A stretch of 64,000 nucleotides of DNA from positions 62,001-126,000 of the forward strand of contig JAAURB010000002.1 in the NCBI GenBank assembly GCA_012033335.1, given 5' to 3'. The notes under the pieces are model-generated. The model had not been told where the DNA came from, did no database searches, and saw only the letters and a list, made by a program, of their open reading frames with translations. The translations under genes were made by a program, and so were the position numbers. This document shows positions 10,216 through 21,573 of this stretch, piece after piece. The stretch is from Oscillatoriales cyanobacterium RM2_1_1. GTDB lineage: Bacteria > Cyanobacteriota > Cyanobacteriia > Cyanobacteriales > Microcoleaceae. Each line of letters begins with the position of its first letter. Position 1 is the first letter of the stretch.

Positions 10216-13200
10216 CTAGGGGTTATCTAAAATACATAAGTTCTGATTTTTGTCAGGTTCAATCAACTTCAGGTAATCTTGTAGCCAGTTACAGCTCTGT
10301 TGAGAATCATCTGAAGATAGGATCAGTTCAAGATTCCAGAGGTTCACTTTTTGATCTTCGCTGGTTGAGATTAACTGTTTGCCTTTTGGGTCAAAGGCAA
10401 CCTGCCAGATGGCTCCATCCGGTTTGTAGATGGTTTTGAGCAACGTTCCGGTACGATTCCAGAGCTTAATCGTCCGATCTAAACCGGCAGAAGCCAGCAT
10501 CTTACCATCCGGACTGAAAGCAACCGTCAGAGCCCCATCTCGATGGGCAATAAAAGTCTCCCGCAGAATACCACTACGGTTCCACAGGTGAATTGTGCCT
10601 TCTAAACTAGCCGAGGCGATCGCATCTCCTCTGGCACTAAAGGCCACATCCACCACTCCGTCTCGATGGCCGGTCAGGGTCTGTAATAACGTACCGGTAG
10701 TCGTCCACAGTTTAACCGTTTGATCCAAGCTAGCGGAGGCAATGACTTGCCCATCTGGACTAAAAGCCAGGGCCCGTACTTCATCTTGATGGGCTGGAAT
10801 CGTTTTAGTATTTTGAAATTGTCCCTGGGAATTGATTACCCAAAGCTTGATCATGCCATCCCGGCTCCCTGAAACAATCATTTTCCCATCTGGGCTAAAT
10901 TGGGCATCCCAAACTGGACTGTTGTGGCCTGTTAAGGTTTGATCTAGCTGACCCTGAGAATTCCATAATTTAATCGTTTTATCCCAACTGCTAGAAACAA
11001 TCTTTTGGCCATCCGCTCTGAACCCAACCCCTAATACCCTAGCTTGATGCCCATTAAAGGTAGCCAGGATTGTCCCATCTGGTTTCCAAAGTTTTAAGGT
11101 CTTGTCATCGCTACCCGATAGGATGGTGTGATTATAAGGGTGGATAGCCAGGGCAACCACTCCGGCCCGATGGCCACTTAAGGTTTTAACCAGGGGGTGC
11201 TGCAGTCGCCAGAGTTTAACGAGTTTGTCTGCTCCTGAGGATGCAATCAACTGGCCATCTGGGCTAAAAGCCACACTGTGGACGCGCTCTTGATGGCCCT
11301 CCAGGTTTCTTACTAAAGTGCCGTTAAGGAACCAGAGTTTCGCTGTCTGATCCCAACTGGCAGTGGCAATCGTCTTGCCATCGGGACTGAAGCTGACATC
11401 AGCGATCTCAGCACTATGACCTGAAAAGCTACGTTCCAGGCGACCGTTTTGCCATAGATAAATCATTCCGTCATCCCCCACAGACACTAACTGGAAGGAT
11501 CCAGGGGTTTGATTTTGACTTTGATTTTGAACTGGGGGAGCGTAAGCAATGCCTCGAACCGGGCCTTGATGAGCCTGGAGGGTTTGTTCCAGTTGGCCAT
11601 CAAGCTGCCAAAGCTTGACCGTACTGTCTTCACTAGCGGAGGCAATCTGTTGACCATCAGGGCGAAAAGCCACCCTCTGAACAGCAGCGGTATGACCCTT
11701 GAAGGTTTGTTTGAGCTGACCAGAGCGGCTCCAGAGTTTTAAGGTTTTGTCTTCGCTCCCTGATACCAAAAGCTGACCATCGGGGCTAAAGGCCACACTC
11801 CCAACTCCGGCAGAGTGCCCCGAAAATGTGCGTTCTAATTGTCCATCCACGGCCCAGAGTTTGACTGTTTTATCCTTGCTGGCTGAAGCCAGGGTTTGGC
11901 TATCGGGGCTGAAGGTGACCCGCCAGACCGAACCCTGATGGCCCTTTAAGGTTCTCAGCAGTCTGCCACTGGTATTCCACAGCTTGATGGTTTGATCGCC
12001 GCTAGCCGTTGCTAGATAGCGACCATCAGGGCTAAAGGCAACAGACCAGATGGATTTCTGATGGCCAACCAAACGATTTGATTCCTCTGCCTGATAGAGG
12101 GCCTGTCTCAGGGCAACTGTCACCTGGGTCTGAGCCTGAAAATTAGCGTTGGGCAGTTGTTCGAGTTTGCGCTGGGCCCTGAGGGCTTCTACCAGAGCTT
12201 CTAACTTTTGGTTTGAGGCCAGTAATGCTTCTGAAGAGAGGGTCAAGGCCAGGATTTCATTCAGTTGGGCCGTGCGATATTGAAAAAAGTCACCAGGCCC
12301 AATCCGCCGGCAACCAACAGAGCTGAGCTAATCACGGCCAGCAGCGATCTCTGCAAGCGACTGACTTTTTGTTCCTGTTCCAGGCGAGCCACAACTTCTT
12401 TGATTTGTTGAGCTTCCAGAATGGTTTGCCGTTCTTGCCACTCTAATTCCTGACTAGCGACAATAAACTGATAATCCAGATCACTGAGACTTTTTCCTTG
12501 GGCCCAGTTTTGGGCGTCCTTGAGGGCCTGTCCCCGCAGCAGACGAGACCGATCCCGACGATTTGAAGTCATCCAGGCATCGAAGGTTTGGGAATAGGGT
12601 CGAAGTTTGGCCAATTGACGATTGATCCAGTCCAAATCAAAGACTTCCTGGTAGATTGGATTTTTGATCTGAAGATACCCCTGATTACGAACTACCAAAC
12701 CACTCAGTAATAGCTCAATTTGCTCCTGGCTGTCATCTACTTCAACGGCTAACTCCTGCAACATTTGCTGGTACAGCGCTAACATCCGCCCAGTATGTTG
12801 TCCGTAGCAGAGGCGATCGCGAATGGTACGGAGATGCTCTGGTTCGTCCTGGACTTCCCATCGATCAATGACGTGGGCTCGAACCACCTGCTCAATCCAG
12901 AAGGGCTCTGTGCCCGGTGGCAGGGCTAGTTTTCCCTCACTGACTTTCTCCTGGCTGAGTTGCCAGACAATCTGGCAGAGCTTTTGGGTAAGAAACGGCT
13001 GACCCCCTGTCCACTTGAGAATTTCCTGGAGCAAGAGGTCTGGATTTTTGACATGGTCTGCCAAGCCCTGGGCCAGGGGATGCACCTCTAACGGGCGAAA
13101 GCCTTGGAGTTCAATCGATTGACCAATATTAAATGGAGTTAGGGTACGATTTTGAATCAACTCAGAGGGAGTAGCTACCCCAAATACCGCAAAATTAACC

Positions 13201-13727
13201 CGATAATACTCAGGATTGAGGGCTCTCTGGTTGTAGAAATAACGAATCAGGGTGAAAAAATCATCTGCTGGAAAGGGCAACCGCAAAACACTGTCAATTT
13301 CATCGATCAGGATAAAAAGATTGTTCTGGGGAAAGTGAGTGACGAACAACTCGGTAATGAATTGGCTGAAGCGCTGAAAGTCTGAAATATCTTCCCGAGA
13401 AGCCCACCAGGATTTTAGATTCAACTTCCCCAACAAATCAAATTCCAACCAAAGCTGGGAAACAATCCCCTTATACCACTGAGCTGGAGTGGTTTCTTCG
13501 CTCACCAGACTGGTCATATCCAGGGTGGCACAGGCACAACCTGCCAATTCTAAACGCTGTTTGATCCGGACTAACAGGGAAGATTTGCCCATCTGCCGGG
13601 AATTGAGCACATAGCAAAATTCTCCCTGGGCCAGGGTAGTGTAAAGTTTTTCATCGGCATCTCGTTCGACATAATGAGGATGATCATCAGCCAAACATCC
13701 TCCTACCTGATATCTGCGAGTGACCAT
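10216..13727 (-). CDS. AAA-like NTPase with about 14 WD40 repeats, frameshifted in the middle
   Basis: The first 480 residues form an AAA-like (AAA_35 type) NTPase. A P-loop-like N-S-R-Q-M-G-K-S lies near residue 43-50 and Walker B L-F-I-L-I-D-E-I-D follows. A hydrophobic membrane segment sits near 460-482. The frame then breaks at a run of six T (12283-12288 on the coding strand). One added T gives F-F-Q-Y-R-T-A-Q-L-N and joins directly to the WD40 part, for 1,170 residues. I count about 14 G-H-x-x-x-V-x-x-V-A-F-S-P-D-G units, enough for two seven-bladed propellers. Such proteins are common in filamentous cyanobacteria and may be signalling or STAND-like switches. The specific function is unknown. 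Confidence 0.85.
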
Positions 13728-13845: not shown

Positions 13846-14820
13846 TCAGCCATGAAGTTTTGCGATTTGATTCAGGTTGGTGCGGGCATTGCGTCGCCAC
13901 ATTTCAGGCTTGATTCGCCGCAGGGCAGAGGCCGGAAAGCGGCGATTCCATTCGTCCTCTGAGAGTTCTGCCAGTTCTGATAGCTGAGGAGCAATATTCC
14001 AAGGATAGGGCTGAAAGTCTTCTATATCGGTCTCTTGGGCAAATCGTTGATTCCAGGGACAAACCTCCTGACAAATATCGCAGCCCGCAACCCAACCCCC
14101 CAAATTGATATCCTCTGGCAATGCTTCTGCCCGGTTTTCAATGGTGTGATAGGCAATACAGCGGTTGGCATCTACCACAAAGGGCTCAACAATCGCCTGG
14201 GTGGGGCACGCCTCTAAACAGCGAGTACAGGTGCCGCAATGTTTGGTGTGGGGAGTATCTGGAGTCAGGCACAGGTTAGTCAGAATTTCCCCTAAAAATA
14301 CCCAGGAACCATACTGGCGGGTAATCACATTGCTATTTTTGGCAATCCAACCGATGCCAGCCTGTTGCGCCCAGACTTTATCCTGAATTGGCCCAGTATC
14401 AGCGTAGTAGCGAGCTTGAATGCCTTGGCCCTGAGCTTCTAACCAGGTGGTCAGGGACTTAAGTTTCTGAGGCATCACCCGGTGATAATCCCGCCCCCAA
14501 CCATAGCGAGAAATCTTTGCAAATTCATGGCCTTCGGGGTGTTGGTGGGGGGTGTAATAGTTCAATGCCAGACAAATCACTGACTGTACCCCTGGCATCA
14601 CCTGCTCAATCTGCTGACGTTTGGGATTTGCCATCCAGGCCATATCTGCCTGATATCCTTGAGCCAGCCAGGTTCTGAGGGGGTCTATTGCCTCAGGTTC
14701 CAAGTCATTCACTCGGGCGATCCCAACTTGATGGAACCCCAGGATTTTAGCCTGTTGCTTGATCTGATCGGCTGAAATAATCTCTGATGAACCTTTTAAC
14801 ATCTCATTTTGGATTGCCAT
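13846..14820 (-). CDS. queG: Epoxyqueuosine reductase
   Basis: QueG reduces epoxyqueuosine to queuosine in the wobble base of tRNAs, using a corrinoid and two [4Fe-4S] clusters. The 324-residue length is within the family range. Visible are the catalytic-region Y-Y-A-D-T-G-P-I (Asp 141), the first ferredoxin-like Cys set [12 protein letters not shown] at 195-206, and the second [12 protein letters not shown] at 246-256. The start may be at 14820 or seven codons in (14802); neither has a strong ribosome site. It is transcribed away from the peptide cluster, so the shared 210-base gap contains both promoters. Confidence 0.93.
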
Positions 14821-14923: not shown

Positions 14924-14947
14924 AAATAAATCTGCCAAACTGGCAAC
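14924..14947 (+). promoter_or_regulatory. Conserved upstream element of peptide gene 1 with small inverted repeat
   Basis: The stretch AAATAAATCTGCCAAACTGG plus CAAC is repeated almost exactly before the second peptide gene. Here it lies 106 bases before the ATG, and there 107. It contains the inverted pair TGCCA/TGGCA around three bases. The fixed spacing suggests an operator or a 5' UTR stem shared by both genes. It could also be a by-product of the duplication. Confidence 0.45.
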
Positions 14948-15029
14948 TGTAAGTTACCCCTTTTGAATATATTAATGAGCGAGAAGTAATCCAACTTCTG
15001 TCCAATATTCAAATCCTAGGAGAAAAACC

Positions 15030-15338
15030 ATGATCATCTCTGATCTAAACTATTTGGAAGTTGCTCAAGAGCCAGTTGTTGGTGGAGTTTTCGTTGCTAA
15101 GTTCGTTGATATCAGCGTTGATGTTGATCAGGACTTTAACGTTAATATTGATGTTGACGTTAACAAGGACATCGATGCTACTCTCGACAGCAATGTCGAT
15201 ATTTCTGGTAACTTCGCTAGCTTGACTTTCGACGTAACTGCAATCGGTAACAATTCTTTCGCTGAAGGTGATGTTTCCGTGATCGTTACTGGCGACCTAT
15301 CTGAAGTCAGCGGCACTTTGATTGCTGGCGTTCAGTAA
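15030..15338 (+). CDS. Double-glycine-leader Asp/Val-rich peptide 1
   Basis: A 102-residue peptide. Residues 1-19 (MIISDLNYLEVAQEPVVGG) look like a leader for a C39-peptidase/ABC exporter, with the Gly-Gly cleavage pair at 18-19. The predicted core of 83 residues has no Cys, Arg, Trp or Tyr. It is rich in alternating Asp and Val or Ile (V-D-V-D-Q-D-F, N-I-D-V-D-V) and holds about 13 Asp and 13 Ser/Thr. The second half is more Ser/Thr/Gly-rich and ends I-A-G-V-Q. AGGAGA sits about seven bases before the ATG. A near copy follows at 15799. I recall similar MIISDLNYLE leaders in other cyanobacteria but no assigned function. A ribosomally made, modified secreted peptide is my inference. Confidence 0.85.
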   Translation: MIISDLNYLEVAQEPVVGGVFVAKFVDISVDVDQDFNVNIDVDVNKDIDATLDSNVDISGNFASLTFDVTAIGNNSFAEGDVSVIVTGDLSEVSGTLIAGVQ

Positions 15339-15427
15339 TCAGGCTAAGTCATCAAGTTCGGCTATCGAGTTCAGTTATCAAGAAGTTCTCCTCTGGAAAA
15401 CAACTTTCATAGATCATCAACTATCGA

Positions 15428-15467
15428 AACAGAAACCTGTTTGAGTCACATCAAGCAGGTTTCTGTT
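15428..15467 (+). terminator. Stem-loop terminator after peptide gene 1
   Basis: The arms AACAGAAACCTG (15428-15439) and CAGGTTTCTGTT (15456-15467) pair perfectly over 12 bases around a 16-base loop, 90 bases past the stop codon. No long T-run follows, so termination efficiency is uncertain. It would separate peptide gene 1 from peptide gene 2. Confidence 0.6.
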
Positions 15468-15480
15468 AGTGGCTAGGTAT

Positions 15481-15560
15481 AATTAATTGAAAGATTGATC
15501 TAGGGGCGAGGCCCCAGATCCCCTTCCATTTAACAATTGATTACAACCACCTACTGAATT
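15481..15560 (+). repeat. Dispersed short repeat, family 2, copy 1
   Basis: The segment CCATTTAACAATTGATTACA plus ACCACCTACTGAATT, preceded by AGATTGAT and a G/C-rich hairpin GGGGC-GAG-GCCCC, recurs in reverse orientation at 32885-32974. The flanks differ, so it is a mobile or dispersed non-coding repeat. It occupies most of the space between the two peptide genes after the terminator. Confidence 0.55.
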
Positions 15561-15691
15561 TTCTGCATCTGTAGTTTCATTATCAGTTTAGTCATTGCGA
15601 GTTCAGTTTTGCAGGACTACTTGATCCCTGGTTGCAATTTCAACACCCTCCAGGCTCCAAATACTATTAGAATATTACCCGGCTTGATCCC

Positions 15692-15715
15692 AAATAAATC
15701 TGCCAAATCGGCAAC
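15692..15715 (+). promoter_or_regulatory. Conserved upstream element of peptide gene 2
   Basis: AAATAAATCTGCCAAATCGG plus CAAC matches the element before peptide gene 1 at 22 of 24 positions, both differences being in the loop or adjacent pair. It is 107 bases before the ATG. The inverted pair TGCC/GGCA is kept while the bases between changed, which hints at selection for the dyad. Confidence 0.45.
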
Positions 15716-15798
15716 ATGATCTTGAATCACTTCATTATTCTGAGTATCAAGGGAAGTAAAGTCTTTCCTGAAACCTTAATTATTAAGAGGACAAATCC

Positions 15799-16113
15799 AT
15801 GATTATTTCTGACCTTAACTACTTGGAAGTTGCTCAAGAAGCGATCGCTGGCGGTACTGGCGTATTTGTTTCTAAGAATGTTTTCGTTGACGTTGATGTT
15901 GATCAGGATTTTAACGTTGATATTGATGTTGATGTTGACAAGGACATCGATGCAACTCTCAACAGCAATGTTGATATTTCTGGTAACTTCGCTAGCTTGA
16001 CTTTCGACGTAACTGCAATCGGTAACAATTCCTTCGCTGAAGGTGATGTTTCCGTGATCGTTACTGGCGACCTATCTGAAGTCAGCGGTACTTTAATTGC
16101 TGGTGTTCAGTAA
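15799..16113 (+). CDS. Double-glycine-leader Asp/Val-rich peptide 2
   Basis: A 104-residue paralogue of peptide 1. The leader MIISDLNYLEVAQEAIAGG ends in the Gly pair at 18-19, leaving an 85-residue core. The core begins T-G-V-F-V-S-K-N, then V-D-V-D-V-D-Q-D-F-N-V-D-I-D-V-D-V-D-K-D-I-D. From N-V-D-I-S-G-N to the end it is identical to peptide 1, and the DNA there differs at only a few silent sites. AGAGGA precedes the ATG. Alternating acidic and branched residues fit a beta-structure or cation-binding surface. It is the nearest peptide gene to the JmjC oxygenase, 160 bases away. Confidence 0.85.
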   Translation: MIISDLNYLEVAQEAIAGGTGVFVSKNVFVDVDVDQDFNVDIDVDVDKDIDATLNSNVDISGNFASLTFDVTAIGNNSFAEGDVSVIVTGDLSEVSGTLIAGVQ

Positions 16114-16140
16114 TAGCATCTAATCGTAACTAGTCATAAT

Positions 16141-16166
16141 AAAGTTGCCCTACGGAGGACAACTTT
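16141..16166 (+). terminator. Stem-loop after peptide gene 2
   Basis: AAAGTTG (16141-16147) pairs with CAACTTT (16160-16166), extended by CCT/AGG inside one mismatch and closing a short loop. A weaker version of the same structure follows peptide gene 1 near 15380-15410. It may be a 3' stability element rather than a terminator. Confidence 0.45.
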
Positions 16167-16197
16167 CAAAGATCATTAAGTTAAGATTGTTTAGCTT

Positions 16198-16228
16198 AAC
16201 CTGCTTAATTATAACAATTAGGCAGGTT
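16198..16228 (+). terminator. Second stem-loop between peptide gene 2 and the JmjC gene
   Basis: AACCTGC-T-TAATT (16198 onward) pairs with AATTA-G-GCAGGTT (to 16228), 13 pairs including one T-G wobble, around a five-base loop. It lies 48 bases before the JmjC start. It could cause partial termination, so that the abundant peptide messages exceed the enzyme message. Confidence 0.5.
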
Positions 16229-16275
16229 CATTTGCAAACTTTATCCAGGTATTAGAACCGGATGTTGTAAAAGTG

Positions 16276-17493
16276 ATGATGAACACCCTCTCAAATCTCT
16301 TGCAGCCTTATCCTGTTGAGCAATTTCTCCATGAAAACTGGGCCCAGCAAGGTATTCTAATCTCAGGCAATCAGCCCAGTCGATTTGATCACTTATTTTC
16401 CTGGCATCAATTCAATCATTTACTCAATTTTCATCGGCTTCGGGAACCCCAACTCCGGTTTGTCCTCGATCAAAAAGACATGTCCTTTGCTAATCCTCAA
16501 GAAGGAGTAAGGCGCTGCAAAGCCGGAGCTAGCATTGTATTGAGTCGGGTGAACGAGTTGGTTCCACAGATTGCTGACCTAATTTGGTCGCTGCAGGAAG
16601 ATCTAGGCCACCGAAAAATTCACGCCAATGTCTACTGTTCTTGGCCGGGCCATCAAGGATTTCACTGTCATTACGATACCCATGAAGTGTTTATCCTGCA
16701 GCTTGAGGGAGAAAAAGAATGGTTTGTTTTTGAAGACACGCTCAAATATCCCTATCGCCAAGAGACTTGGGACTCCCGGGAACCACCCAAGAGTGAGCCC
16801 TATATTCACAGCGTACTCAAGCCGGGGGATCTGCTGTATATTCCTCGGGGTCACTGGCATTATGCGATCGCCCAGAATCAACCCTCTCTCCATTTGACCA
16901 TTGGTGTTCTTTGTTTGAAGGGAGCTGATCTATTGACCTGGTTAGCGGAGACCCTGCAGCAGCCAGAAATCTGGCGTAAGAATCTGCCTCTCTTTTCCCA
17001 GGGAGAAACAGAGCCGCTTGAAGAATATACCAGGCGACTGATTGACCATTTAGTCGGAACGTTGCAAGCCGAAAAACAGCATCTAAGTCAAGAATTTGCC
17101 CGGGTTCACAGAATGCAGGGATTCCGAGATGCAGAAGTGTCCCTGCCGATGCAAGTCGGGTTCGGCTTATTCGCCCAAGAGCTGAATACTCCTTTGCGAT
17201 TAGCTCAATTTCTCAAGGTCAGATTGGAGCCCTTACCCGAGGGTTCCTATCAATTGGTGGCTGGAGACAAAACCGTCACATTCAAGCAGTTGCCTCCGGA
17301 GTTTGTCAAGCAGTTGATGGAATTTGTCCTATCTGGACAGATTTTTACCCCCAATGAGATCGCTCAAAAGCTGCCAAACTATAGTTTAGACACTGTGATT
17401 ATCCCGATTTTAGCTGGGTTAATTAAAGAAGGAGTATTGATTGAAGATGACCCAATCTACACTGACAGAAATAGAAATCAAATCATTGATTAA
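16276..17493 (+). CDS. JmjC/Cupin_4-type Fe(II)- and 2-oxoglutarate-dependent oxygenase
   Basis: About 405 residues. The segment G-F-H-C-H-Y-D-T-H-E-V-F-I-L-Q-L-E-G (near 128-147) matches the ribosomal-oxygenase-type (YcfD/NO66, Cupin_4) core, with metal ligands His and Asp in H-Y-D. The distal His is in L-Y-I-P-R-G-H-W-H (near 188-196). A winged-helix-like C-terminal region follows (A-Q-K-L-P-N-Y-S... L-I-K-E-G-V). Known relatives hydroxylate ribosomal-protein side chains. Here the two peptides lie immediately upstream, so hydroxylation of a peptide Asp, Asn or other residue is my inference. GTG 16273 and ATGs 16276 and 16279 are all possible starts. The gene overlaps the GT41 gene by about 47 bases. 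Confidence 0.85.
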   Translation: MMNTLSNLLQPYPVEQFLHENWAQQGILISGNQPSRFDHLFSWHQFNHLLNFHRLREPQLRFVLDQKDMSFANPQEGVRRCKAGASIVLSRVNELVPQIADLIWSLQEDLGHRKIHANVYCSWPGHQGFHCHYDTHEVFILQLEGEKEWFVFEDTLKYPYRQETWDSREPPKSEPYIHSVLKPGDLLYIPRGHWHYAIAQNQPSLHLTIGVLCLKGADLLTWLAETLQQPEIWRKNLPLFSQGETEPLEEYTRRLIDHLVGTLQAEKQHLSQEFARVHRMQGFRDAEVSLPMQVGFGLFAQELNTPLRLAQFLKVRLEPLPEGSYQLVAGDKTVTFKQLPPEFVKQLMEFVLSGQIFTPNEIAQKLPNYSLDTVIIPILAGLIKEGVLIEDDPIYTDRNRNQIID

Positions 17494-19519
17494 AAATGCG
17501 GCTCAAAAGCATCAATCAGGTCAGTTGCAGGAGGCCAAATTACTCTATAAAGAGATTTTTCAGAACTTTCCAGGGAGTACAGACTTGCCAGCGAGCTGCA
17601 TTCATCTTTATCCTTTAATTCTGACTGACTACGGGCGATTGCTCCAGAAACTAGGCCAATCTGATCAAGCCATTCAATTCTATCAGCAGGCTATTGAGCT
17701 TGATCCCGAACTGATTCAAGCTCAGATTAATTTAGGAACTATTTTTCAAACCCAGGAAAGATTGGTAGAGGCAGCCCAAGCCTACCAAAATATTTTAGGG
17801 CTCAATCCTCATTTGGCTGAAGTTCACAATGGTTTAGGAATCATTTATAAAAAGCAAAAGCAAGATCAGCAGGCCATTGAACACTATCAAAAAGCTATCG
17901 AGATCAGTCCTAATTTTGTTGAGGCATACAATAACCTGGGAATTGTCTTGAAAAATCAGGGAAGGATTTCAGAGGCATTGGCAGCTTATCAACAGGCATT
18001 GAGGATTAAGCCTGACTTTGATATGGCTAAGTTTGGATTGTGTATGACGCAACTCCCAATCATTTATCAGGACACTGAAGAGATTCTTTGGAGACGCAGT
18101 TGCTATCAAAATCATCTGCAAAAATTGGCTGATGAGTATGATCAATCCAGTCTTGATCAACAATCCCGTGGAGCTAATATTGTTGGTACAATGCAACCTT
18201 TTTATCTAGCTTATCAGGGTTTGAATGATCGGGAATTACAACATATTTATGGGTCATTGATCTGTCAGTTGATGGCAGTTCGCTATCCAAATTGGAGTCA
18301 ACCCATCCCTTTACTCAAGCCGGATCAGTATCAGAAGATTCGAGTGGGATTTGTCTCGAGTTGTTTCTATCATCATTCAGTCTGGAAAATTCCGATTAAA
18401 GGTTGGATTGAAAATATCGACAGGGAACAGTTTGAGTTGTTTGGATATCATACTAATTCTAAGCAAGATCAAGAAACGGTTGAGGCAGCTCAAGCTTTTG
18501 TGCAGTTTACTCAAGGCACTTTTTCCGTTGATCAATGGGCTGAGAAAATTCACAATGACCAGCTTCATGTGCTGATTTTTCCAGAGATTGGTATGGAGCC
18601 TCTGCCGGTTCAAATCGCCTGTTTGAAGCTTGCTCCCATTCAAATGGTATTTGGAGGGCATCCTGAAACCACAGGACTACCCACGATTGATTATCATCTA
18701 ACCAGTGACTTAATGGAGCCCAAAAATGGTCAGGATCATTACACTGAAACATTAGTCAGGTTACCCAACTTAGGAGTCTGCTACACCCCCTTAAAAACCC
18801 AACCCCGGAACATCAAAAAAAAAGATATTGGAATGCCCGAAAATCAAGTTATGTTCTGGTGCTGTCAATCCCTATTTAAATATCTGCCTCAACATGATGA
18901 TATTTTCCCCCAAATTGCTCAACGGTTAGACAAGGGGAGATTTGTATTTATTCGCCATGACAGTGAAGTGGTAAACCAGATCTTTTATACCCGACTGGAG
19001 TTGGCTTTTCAAAAATATAATTTAAGCCATGAAAAATACTGCATTTTTTTACCCCGTTTAAAGGCCAGAATGTTTGCAGGGGTTACGGCTTTAGCGGATG
19101 TTTTTCTAGATAATATTGGCTGGTCAGGCAATAACACAATTATGGAGTCCACGCTTTATAATAATGTGCCGATTGTCACCTGGCCCGGAACCCTAATGCG
19201 AAGCCGTCATGCTAAAGCAATTCTTGATGTGATGGGCATTGTAGAAACCATTGCCTCTAGTAAAGCAGACTATATTGAGATTGCCATCAGGTTAGGGGAG
19301 GACTCGGCTTATCGTCGGTCAATCTCTGAAAAAGTCAACCATTCTAAACACAAACTTTACAACGATCTAACCCCTGTCAGAGCCCTAGAAGATTTTCTTA
19401 ATCAAGTGGTTCGACAACCCAAATCTCTGCCAGATTGGCAACATTCTGAGGCTAGAGTGCGATTGAATAAACCACAATTGAATGAATCAGAGTTCAATCA
19501 ATGGAAATTTAATGATTAA
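17447..19519 (+). CDS. TPR protein with GT41 (O-GlcNAc transferase/SPINDLY-like) catalytic domain
   Basis: About 690 residues. Residues 40-200 hold tetratricopeptide repeats (A-I-Q-F-Y-Q-Q-A-I-E-L-D-P, A-H-Y-Q-K-A-I-E-like, L-A-A-Y-Q-Q-A-L). The C-terminal part resembles the GT41 catalytic domain: I-R-V-G-F-V-S near 290, I-Q-M-V-F-G-G-H-P-E-T-T-G-L-P, D-Y-H-L-T-S-D, D-V-F-L-D-N-I-G-W-S-G-N-N-T and P-I-V-T-W-P-G. GT41 enzymes attach a sugar to Ser or Thr of proteins in the cytoplasm. The GAAGGAG at 17428-17434 lies inside the JmjC gene. The ATG at 17447 or the TTG at 17441 may be used. The overlap suggests co-translation with the oxygenase. Confidence 0.85.
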   Translation: MTQSTLTEIEIKSLIKNAAQKHQSGQLQEAKLLYKEIFQNFPGSTDLPASCIHLYPLILTDYGRLLQKLGQSDQAIQFYQQAIELDPELIQAQINLGTIFQTQERLVEAAQAYQNILGLNPHLAEVHNGLGIIYKKQKQDQQAIEHYQKAIEISPNFVEAYNNLGIVLKNQGRISEALAAYQQALRIKPDFDMAKFGLCMTQLPIIYQDTEEILWRRSCYQNHLQKLADEYDQSSLDQQSRGANIVGTMQPFYLAYQGLNDRELQHIYGSLICQLMAVRYPNWSQPIPLLKPDQYQKIRVGFVSSCFYHHSVWKIPIKGWIENIDREQFELFGYHTNSKQDQETVEAAQAFVQFTQGTFSVDQWAEKIHNDQLHVLIFPEIGMEPLPVQIACLKLAPIQMVFGGHPETTGLPTIDYHLTSDLMEPKNGQDHYTETLVRLPNLGVCYTPLKTQPRNIKKKDIGMPENQVMFWCCQSLFKYLPQHDDIFPQIAQRLDKGRFVFIRHDSEVVNQIFYTRLELAFQKYNLSHEKYCIFLPRLKARMFAGVTALADVFLDNIGWSGNNTIMESTLYNNVPIVTWPGTLMRSRHAKAILDVMGIVETIASSKADYIEIAIRLGEDSAYRRSISEKVNHSKHKLYNDLTPVRALEDFLNQVVRQPKSLPDWQHSEARVRLNKPQLNESEFNQWKFND

Positions 19520-19641
19520 AAAATCAATTTACTCCTGCACTAACCGTTTAATCAACCAGTGATCAACCAGTGAATTAGTGAGAGTTGATCATTCAATTAA
19601 CCTAACCTTCCTAGATCTATCTGAGAACCCAGGATACTCCT

Positions 19642-21573
19642 ATGGCGACCCTGACCGAAGCCCTACAACTTGCAATCTCAGACCATCGTGCTAATCATTT
19701 CACTCGGGCTGAACGAACCTACGCTCAGATCTTAGAGAAGCAGCCCCATAATGCTGATGCTCTCTATGGTTTGGGGGTTTTGACTCACCAAATCGGCAAA
19801 TATCAGCTCGCCGAACACCTGTTCAACCAGTTACTCAAGCTTCATCCCGATTCGGCTAGGGGATGGTTAGGGCTAGGGAATTTGTATCAGAGTCAGGGTC
19901 AATTTTCTGAGGCTATAACCGCCTACCAAAACGTTTTAGAAATTCAACCCGATTCAGTGGCCGCCTATAACAACCTGGGCTATGCCCTACAACAACAGGG
20001 CAAATTAGAGGAGGCGATCGCCCGCTACCAAACAGCCCTGGAGTTCCAACCCGATTGCCAGGAAGCGGAGGTGAATTTGGGTAATATTTTTCATGCCTTG
20101 GGCCAGCTTTCCCCGGAGAATCAACTTGACTATGGCATTGCTAATTGCAACCTGGGAATCACTTGCCAGTATCAGGGAGATCTGAAAACCGCCCGCCAAT
20201 ACTACCATCAGGCGATCGCCCTGAACCCCAATCTTGCCAAGGCTTACTCCGGCTTGGGGGCAATTTATCAAAAACAGGATCAGCTAGAGTTGGCAGAAGC
20301 CGCCTACCACAAAGCCCTAGAGCTTGATCCAGAGGATGGAGAGGTTTATTTGAGTCTGGGCAAGCTGTATCAAACTCAGCGTCAACTCATGGCATCAGCT
20401 TCTGCCTATCGTCAGGGATTATGCCGGGTGAATCCGGCCTATGCCGCCGCTCTGAAAGCCTACCAGCCCTTGAATGTCCCCCCCGAAGAGCGTTTGCCCC
20501 CTGAGGTTTCTATGGGAGAGGTAACGATTGGAGGACATTCGTTTCCGACGGTTTCTCCCGTACCTACCGATCAGGGTAAGCGTCCGTTCTGGACGGTGAT
20601 TGTACCCCTCTACAACCGCCAGGAATTTATGCTGGAATGCCTGGCTAGTTTGCTCAGACAGTGGCAGGGAGAGGAGCACATGGAGATTCTAGTGATGGAC
20701 AATAATAGCCATGTTCCGATGTTTGAACTGGTAGAAGCCATTGGGGGAGGGGTTGTTCAGTATTACCGAAATCCCCAGAATATTGGAGCCCGACGCAACT
20801 TTAACCTGGGAATTGCCCTGAGTCGGGGACAATGGGTGCAGGTCTTGCCAGATGATGAATATGTCTTGCCCGATTTTTACAAGCGTTTGCAGCAGAGCTT
20901 AGGGGACTGCCCTGATTCGGTGGGAGCAGCTTTCACAGGCTATCAGAATATTGATGATCGAGAAGAGGTTATTTTTGTTCAGTACCATCCCGGGCTACAG
21001 CCGGGGATCAATTCAAATTGGTTGGAGCGGATTGGGGTATCAAATCCCCTGAATCCCTGCGCCGTGGTGATTCGTCGCACGACCCATGAACAGCTTGGAG
21101 TCTATGACCCAGCCAATAACTATACTCCGGATTGGGAGCTCTACAAGCGGATTGCCGCTTTTCAGGATTGGTGGCACGAATCAGGTGTTCTGGCTTGCTA
21201 TCGTCAGCATTCAAACAATATGTCAACCGAGATGTTTCTCGCCGGAGCCCAGGGGGATCAGTATCGTCTGGGGATTGAGATGTCTGCGGGCTATCTGCCT
21301 GCAGAGGTGGTAGCCCGATCTCGACGACACTACTTTGATCTATGCCTGAAACAAGCCGCAATTCCTTTGAAAGCTGGCAAGATGAATGCGGTGTTTCGGC
21401 TGATTCAAGCTGCCCTGAAAATTGATTCATCTCCCGAAGCCGCTCAAAAATTGTTTGCCTGGTTGGCTAGCGATGGAGCTTCTCCAGTCAGAACAGTATT
21501 GGTGGAAAAGTTGAGCGCTATGCCGTTCAATGATTCCAGTGAAACAAAAGATTTTTTCTTTGCCTATCCTTAA
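19642..21573 (+). CDS. TPR protein with family-2 glycosyltransferase domain
   Basis: A 643-residue protein. Residues 1-285 are TPR units (for example A-I-T-A-Y-Q-N-V-L-E-I-Q-P-D-S and A-I-A-R-Y-Q-T-A-L-E). After a short linker, a GT-A domain begins at about 314 with W-T-V-I-V-P-L-Y-N-R, followed by I-L-V-M-D-N-N-S, N-I-G-A-R-R-N-F-N and the metal-binding-like L-P-D-D-E-Y. It lies 122 bases after the GT41 gene on the same strand. TPR-glycosyltransferase proteins usually modify proteins or cell-surface material. I infer possible extension of a sugar placed by the GT41 enzyme. The ATG at 19642 has weak upstream AGGATAC. Confidence 0.82.
   Translation: MATLTEALQLAISDHRANHFTRAERTYAQILEKQPHNADALYGLGVLTHQIGKYQLAEHLFNQLLKLHPDSARGWLGLGNLYQSQGQFSEAITAYQNVLEIQPDSVAAYNNLGYALQQQGKLEEAIARYQTALEFQPDCQEAEVNLGNIFHALGQLSPENQLDYGIANCNLGITCQYQGDLKTARQYYHQAIALNPNLAKAYSGLGAIYQKQDQLELAEAAYHKALELDPEDGEVYLSLGKLYQTQRQLMASASAYRQGLCRVNPAYAAALKAYQPLNVPPEERLPPEVSMGEVTIGGHSFPTVSPVPTDQGKRPFWTVIVPLYNRQEFMLECLASLLRQWQGEEHMEILVMDNNSHVPMFELVEAIGGGVVQYYRNPQNIGARRNFNLGIALSRGQWVQVLPDDEYVLPDFYKRLQQSLGDCPDSVGAAFTGYQNIDDREEVIFVQYHPGLQPGINSNWLERIGVSNPLNPCAVVIRRTTHEQLGVYDPANNYTPDWELYKRIAAFQDWWHESGVLACYRQHSNNMSTEMFLAGAQGDQYRLGIEMSAGYLPAEVVARSRRHYFDLCLKQAAIPLKAGKMNAVFRLIQAALKIDSSPEAAQKLFAWLASDGASPVRTVLVEKLSAMPFNDSSETKDFFFAYP

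Follow-up and report, generated by a model that had tools for sequence, protein, structure and literature searches.

A split cyanobacterial gene set that may produce and decorate secreted Asp/Val-rich double-glycine peptides with a JmjC oxygenase and TPR glycosyltransferases

A 64,000-nucleotide stretch of the genome of Oscillatoriales cyanobacterium RM2_1_1 (contig JAAURB010000002.1, positions 62,001 to 126,000; hereafter, the window) carries two genes for peptides with double-glycine (GG) leaders, followed by those encoding a JmjC oxygenase, a TPR-GT41 glycosyltransferase that overlaps the oxygenase gene, and a TPR-GT2 glycosyltransferase. This arrangement, including the paralogy of the two peptides, had been described in an earlier note on the window, and all five genes (5/5) were confirmed on its + strand. 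Judged from comparisons of sequence and gene order, the locus appears on balance to be one half of a split gene set for making and decorating secreted Asp/Val-rich peptides of beta type. The best reading is that of a HetC-exported peptide that would be hydroxylated on Asp/Asn by the JmjC enzyme and glycosylated by the TPR glycosyltransferases. Genomic context gives good support to the view that the JmjC protein hydroxylates an exported Asp-rich peptide, and we infer that hydroxylation and O-glycosylation would both precede export. GG peptides, HetC-type exporters, GT41 enzymes, and JmjC oxygenases are each already known; no description of the JmjC/glycosyltransferase combination acting on an Asp/Val peptide was found in the searchable literature.

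The pairing of oxygenase and peptide recurs among the closest relatives of the oxygenase. The nearest of these (55-56% identity) are encoded by two genomes of one other genus, G500 and G598, in both of which the JmjC gene lies directly behind a gene for a GG peptide with the same type of Asp/Val core (e.g., MIISDLSYLEVVEESNVVGGYGGVNVTKDVDIEVDVDLNFDANVDVDIDKDIDVNLDSTVDITGNF...). With G500, the JmjC protein is 55% and the GG peptide 58-62% identical to those of the window. A leader-core precursor next to a modifying enzyme, the pattern of ribosomally synthesized and post-translationally modified peptides (RiPPs), was found in the window, G500, and G598. The cluster of G500 and G598 has the order C39 exporter, HlyD, HetP, TPR-GT41::TPR-GT2 fusion, TPR-GT4, PIG-L-like protein, 710-amino acid protein, FkbM-like methyltransferase, GG peptide, and JmjC, with RTX and SurA genes alongside. 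In the phylogenetic tree, the JmjC proteins of the window, G500, G598, and a further genome, G019, form a clade (support 100/95) nested within a JmjC family linked to Asp-rich peptides; the G019 gene is situated amid TPR-GT2, GT41, and GT4 genes. Like the window genome, G500, G598, and G019 also carry a second JmjC of another branch. The GG peptides adjacent to JmjC had the highest Asp content (4 vs. 60 peptides; Mann-Whitney p 5e-4) and were likewise distinguished from the others by the pattern [VILF]D[VILF]D (4 vs. 60; p 3e-6), although these p values are optimistic because the four peptides stem from two lineages.

No exporter is encoded within the 64-kb window, and the earlier note had expected one elsewhere in the genome. 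Three C39 loci do exist outside the window, one of them on contig C121 (locus L027), where the genes are ordered HetC-like exporter, HlyD, HetP, TPR-GT4, PIG-L deacetylase, 594-amino acid protein, and FkbM methyltransferase. The genes of C121 and those of the window sum to the single-cluster set of G500 and G598. Since C121 carries this complementary half, the exporter absent from the window has probably been found, and its HetC-like protein is probably the exporter of the window system. The HetP-like protein of the same locus (L027:9089-9484) carries the leader-like motif ITDLAYMEQVDESCSSISGG in its C-terminal part, close to the end; a motif in this position of HetP was also noted in the 2011 report (PMC3140520).

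Peptide 1 (15030..15338, +; 102 amino acids) comprises the leader MIISDLNYLEVAQEPVVGG and an Asp/Val-rich core, and peptide 2 (15799..16113, +; 104 amino acids) has the highest Asp content among the GG peptides of the family, those linked to JmjC in G500 and G598 excepted. The two are 88-89% identical and share the leader MIISDLNYLEVAQE..GG, which has the form MIISDLNYLE...GG, together with a near-identical second half; alignment of the DNA placed their divergence mainly in the first part of the core, a pattern as after a recent duplication. Neither peptide matched a family in Pfam or NCBIfam; matches to BMC and RimP fell under the cut-off and were disregarded. Structure prediction was unusable (predicted local distance difference test, pLDDT, 49). 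Neither peptide contains Cys, and there is no Tyr, Trp, or His within the Asp-rich part. The proposal that these Cys-free cores do not fit the lanthipeptides, cyanobactins, or microviridins held, in that Pfam and NCBIfam searches of the five genes returned no class enzyme or family leader for lanthipeptides, cyanobactins, microviridins/graspetides, or Nif11/NHLP.

The peptides belong to a cyanobacterial family. Querying GTDB genomes with nine aligned members led to 52 fetched loci, several of them on short contigs, and all 52 were cyanobacterial. When 45 members were aligned, the MIISDLNYLE leader proved near-invariant, ending in GG or GA following the conserved upstream motif, while the core conserves G-N-x-A and A-x-G-x-N-[TS]. 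With homologues of the same leader and core in dozens of cyanobacteria, the peptide genes are more than chance open reading frames. A long-type (HetC-like) C39 ABC exporter was present in 41 of the 52 loci, HlyD in 42, a SurA-like protein in 41, RTX-type repeats in 31, and HetP in 16. A TPR-GT41 occurred in 19/52, and in 12/51 a GT41 gene was the next gene downstream of the GG peptide; these downstream GT41s are 49-59% identical to that of the window, the other GT41 paralogues of the window genome being 23-41% identical to it. The earlier expectation that such leaders would recur near JmjC or GT41 genes in other genomes was accordingly borne out for GT41. For JmjC it failed among the 52 loci, all found by the leader MIIS[DE]LNY, and succeeded for the peptides of G500 and G598, which start with MIISDLSYLE in place of the LNY leader. 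A lack of any link between JmjC and GG peptides thus holds for the 52 LNY loci, but it is overturned by the closest JmjC relatives. No relatives were found on viral contigs. Further ISDLSYLE-GG peptides with differing, Ala/Thr-rich cores were observed in HetC-type clusters (L031:6249-8834, L032:6602-9163, and L036:10061-10477), those of L031 and L032 being placed around a CelD-like gene.

The oxygenase gene (16273..17493, +) starts 160 bp past peptide 2 and encodes a 2-oxoglutarate (2OG)-dependent enzyme of family PF08007 (E 4.6e-28). Its iron triad (H133-x-D135...H196) and the 2OG lysine (K148) are invariant in 91/91. AlphaFold2 modelled the enzyme with confidence (pLDDT 91.7), giving a fold that resembles those of NO66, MINA53, and YcfD. 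Following the JmjC and helical parts, it has a winged-helix-like C-terminal domain (approximately residues 316-391), with three strands and then three helices predicted over residues 316-385, an order that would be that of an RRE domain. Relatives of the enzyme are patchily distributed (85/391 genomes of the order), and the window genome encodes a paralogue with a small peptide of its own (L037).

Such pairing with small acidic peptides extends over the wider JmjC family, where a short Asp-rich peptide with an IxVEVKDL-like motif accompanies the oxygenase in 64/92 loci. Among the first 19 JmjC loci, a strict motif scan had found partner peptides at 6; a relaxed scan found, at 14, a same-strand upstream peptide that has an Asp-rich tail and a motif resembling [ILV]x[VI]E[VI]xx[ILV], compared to approximately 2/665 of the other genes of the fetched loci (after removal of 13 duplicate JmjC loci from a control count of 15/678). 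This enrichment is partly circular because the motif was derived from the same loci, although most of the later loci were fetched afterwards. The partner in the window genome (L037:6549-6689) reads ...KIQIEVKDV...NVDSDGGD, and others contain ...NFDADGGDRNFDADGGDR, ...DQDYDQDYDQDYD, and ...NYDYSRNYDYSR. Short Asp-rich peptides directly upstream of JmjC genes in L065-L080 and L137-L215 feature the repeats DADGGD, DQNQDV, DYDQ, NYDYSR, and SNSN, and some have apparent signal peptides; they are likely a separate, uncharacterised peptide family. No account of such pairs of JmjC and short acidic peptides turned up in the searchable literature, which did not cover a 2025 paper on macrocyclisation by 2OG-dioxygenases in RiPPs. 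We tentatively suggest, as a conjecture that may well be wrong, a widespread cyanobacterial class in which JmjC enzymes would hydroxylate Asp/Asn in D-x-D arrays of IxVEVKDL-marked small acidic precursors, one branch having been re-partnered with HetC-type-exported GG peptides and TPR glycosyltransferases to yield secreted hydroxylated glycopeptides. Separately, a distant JmjC (approximately 26% identity) adjoins small KYGTMKEFT peptides and an asparagine-synthetase-like protein in a cluster (L083:9108-14614) that looks like one for a lasso peptide.

The GT41 gene (17441..19519, +; PF13844, E 1.8e-29) was called from a TTG codon at 17441, and an alternative ATG at 17447 is the likelier start since it matches the start of relatives; even so, approximately 47 bp would still be shared with the JmjC gene. 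The protein combines a TPR array with a GT41 catalytic region, the architecture of protein O-glycosyltransferases of this family, and its nearest solved relatives are SPINDLY and OGT. NGT-type N-glucosylation of the NNS site is conceivable, but the enzyme is only weakly similar to NGT and is nearer to SPINDLY/OGT. Its catalytic part is 62.6% identical to that of the GT41 on the G019 JmjC contig and 59.7% identical to the GT41 half of the G500 fusion. The TPR-GT2 gene (19642..21573, +; PF00535, E 3.9e-19) starts approximately 120 bp past GT41 and is the orthologue of the second half of that fusion. In G500 and G598, the two enzymes orthologous to the separate products of the window are naturally joined in one open reading frame (L233:217-4470, 1417 amino acids, and G598:C235:25372-29586, 1404 amino acids, respectively).

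A pathway can be outlined in which the JmjC enzyme would bind the precursor at its acidic strand, possibly via the winged-helix domain of the enzyme, and hydroxylate the side chains of Asp or Asn residues of the D-x-D array, with its relatives probably doing likewise on the adjoining short Asp-rich peptides. The TPR superhelix of the glycosyltransferases would hold the peptide for addition of a short glycan, perhaps at the conserved A-x-G-N-N/D-S region, and PIG-L and FkbM may trim or cap this glycan. The C39 exporter would then cleave after Gly-Gly and export the product, which, by analogy with the EbfG proteins, is perhaps a cell-surface or matrix protein.

Several observations weigh against this scheme. 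JmjC was absent from all 52 loci found by the LNY leader (0/52), there is no GG peptide on the G019 JmjC contig, and G500 and G598 being of the same genus, the pairing of JmjC with a GG peptide amounts to two independent adjacencies only. The GG peptides of L099/L029 and L107 have no nearby JmjC and yet are about as Asp-rich, and JmjC-free GG peptides likewise show an excess of evenly spaced Asp (44 vs. 16.8 expected). As JmjC-free peptides share both traits, neither Asp-richness nor the D-x-D pattern proves a link to the oxygenase, and even Asp spacing was rejected as a specific signature of JmjC. Profile and sequence searches, including the PDB and Pfam, returned no match of the C-terminal domain of the oxygenase to RRE or other known peptide-recognition domains. 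The RTX and HetP proteins of the same clusters could, moreover, be the targets of the glycosyltransferases. It is possible, though on the unlikely side, that the GG peptides are exported to the matrix or surface without being modified, the TPR glycosyltransferases, PIG-L, and FkbM decorating an RTX protein, a polysaccharide, or a HetP-like protein and the JmjC enzyme acting on something else. This would accommodate the many GG-peptide loci with neither JmjC nor GT41 (GT41 is lacking in 33 of 52), the RTX genes noted above, and the several other GT41 genes of the window genome, but it leaves aside that JmjC adjoins a GG peptide in two lineages, that the wider JmjC family is tied to small Asp-rich peptides, and that in 12 loci the gene immediately following the peptide is a GT41 of one clade.

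If the JmjC enzyme does oxidise the Asp-rich peptide, the outcome might be a cross-link, a macrocycle, or another oxidation, and not hydroxy-Asp. Tyr/Asn repeats (DYDQ, NYDYSR) in some partner peptides of its relatives would suit such chemistry; the lack of Tyr, Trp, and His in the Asp-rich part of the window peptides, and the nearest folds being those of simple side-chain hydroxylases (NO66, MINA53, and YcfD), render it rather improbable. The same Pfam family and overall fold might alternatively indicate a YcfD/NO66-type hydroxylase of ribosomal proteins whose location here is coincidental. This is very improbable given the patchy distribution, unlike that of a housekeeping gene, the same-genome paralogue with its own peptide, the recurrent adjacency of small acidic peptides, and an identity of only approximately 20% to NO66/MINA/YcfD. 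That the products are bacteriocins, following the 2011 naming of cyanobacterial GG peptides as such (PMC3140520) and the export of bacteriocins by C39 exporters elsewhere, concerns their final role and is compatible with the modification steps; it too is doubtful, as the cores are long (approximately 85 residues), acidic, Cys-free, and beta-patterned, no immunity gene was seen, and GG proteins of Synechococcus elongatus are needed for biofilms, three of them forming amyloid (PMC4997328, PMC9981879).

Upstream of both peptide genes is a palindrome, a candidate operator or promoter element: TGCCAAACTGGCA (14933..14945), at 97 bp from the peptide 1 start codon, and TGCCAAATCGGCA (15701..15713), at 98 bp from that of peptide 2. 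Palindromes of the form TGCCAAAATGGCA, with a variable middle, were found at a near-constant spacing of approximately 89-109 bp before the start codons of 23/73 related peptide genes vs. 17/370 control genes; carriers include the window, L182, L187, L031, L032, L036, L091, L093, L098, L114, and L132, amongst others, and additional copies are frequent further upstream. Two inverted repeats read from the sequence, both on the + strand, are terminator- or attenuator-like: a perfect one of 10 bp (CAGAAACCTG / CAGGTTTCTG) after peptide 1 (15430..15465), and one of 7 bp (AACCTGC / GCAGGTT) between peptide 2 and JmjC (16198..16228). An Rfam search returned no RNA element. The neighbouring genes, encoding an AAA_35 protein (12261-13727) and the epoxyqueuosine reductase QueG (13846-14820), are ordinary and on the - strand.

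Should the proposal be correct, it would provide a large set of candidate JmjC peptide oxygenases with obvious candidate substrates (>60 loci), candidate substrates for HetC-like exporters, and a possible cyanobacterial route to surface or matrix proteins that are both hydroxylated and glycosylated. In G500 and G598, the single cluster is compact enough for transfer into a laboratory host.

Among known systems, group II clusters encode the HetP-like proteins from which the cyanobacterial leader motif KIXDLXYLEX10GG was published (Wang et al., 2011; PMC3140520). These "bacteriocin" clusters share with the present system the type of leader motif and the long-type C39 ABC/HlyD/SurA set, and the main text of that report names no cupin, glycosyltransferase, or TPR gene; the window system differs in its conserved Asp/Val beta-type core, its JmjC and TPR glycosyltransferases, and an exporter on another contig. 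HetC of Nostoc PCC 7120 is a C39-ABC exporter with a HetP gene alongside, as in L027 of the window genome; neither a physiological substrate nor a nearby GG-leader gene was identified for it (PMC10986499), whereas the HetC-like exporters here adjoin a defined GG-peptide family. EbfG1-4 and PteB of S. elongatus provide small GG proteins, export by a C39 transporter, and a function in the biofilm matrix (PMC4997328, PMC9981879); they are likened to the window peptides by description and not by sequence, and the parts of these reports consulted mention no modification enzymes. JmjC oxygenases that act, or are proposed to act, on a ribosomal precursor are known from biphenomycin biosynthesis (BipG/BpmG; PMC12707348, PMC12257519), and PF08007 JmjC domains have been noted in fusion with RRE-like folds that have bacterial homologues in contexts resembling those of RiPPs (PMC12710340); the order of strands and helices at the C-terminus of the window JmjC is RRE-like. 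The precursors of these systems are different, and the three papers describe no Asp-rich partner peptides. NO66, MINA53, and YcfD share fold and catalytic residues with the window JmjC and differ from it in genomic partners and sequence. SPINDLY and OGT share the TPR and GT41 catalytic architecture with the window GT41, an apparent likeness at the level of architecture and not of individual catalytic contacts.
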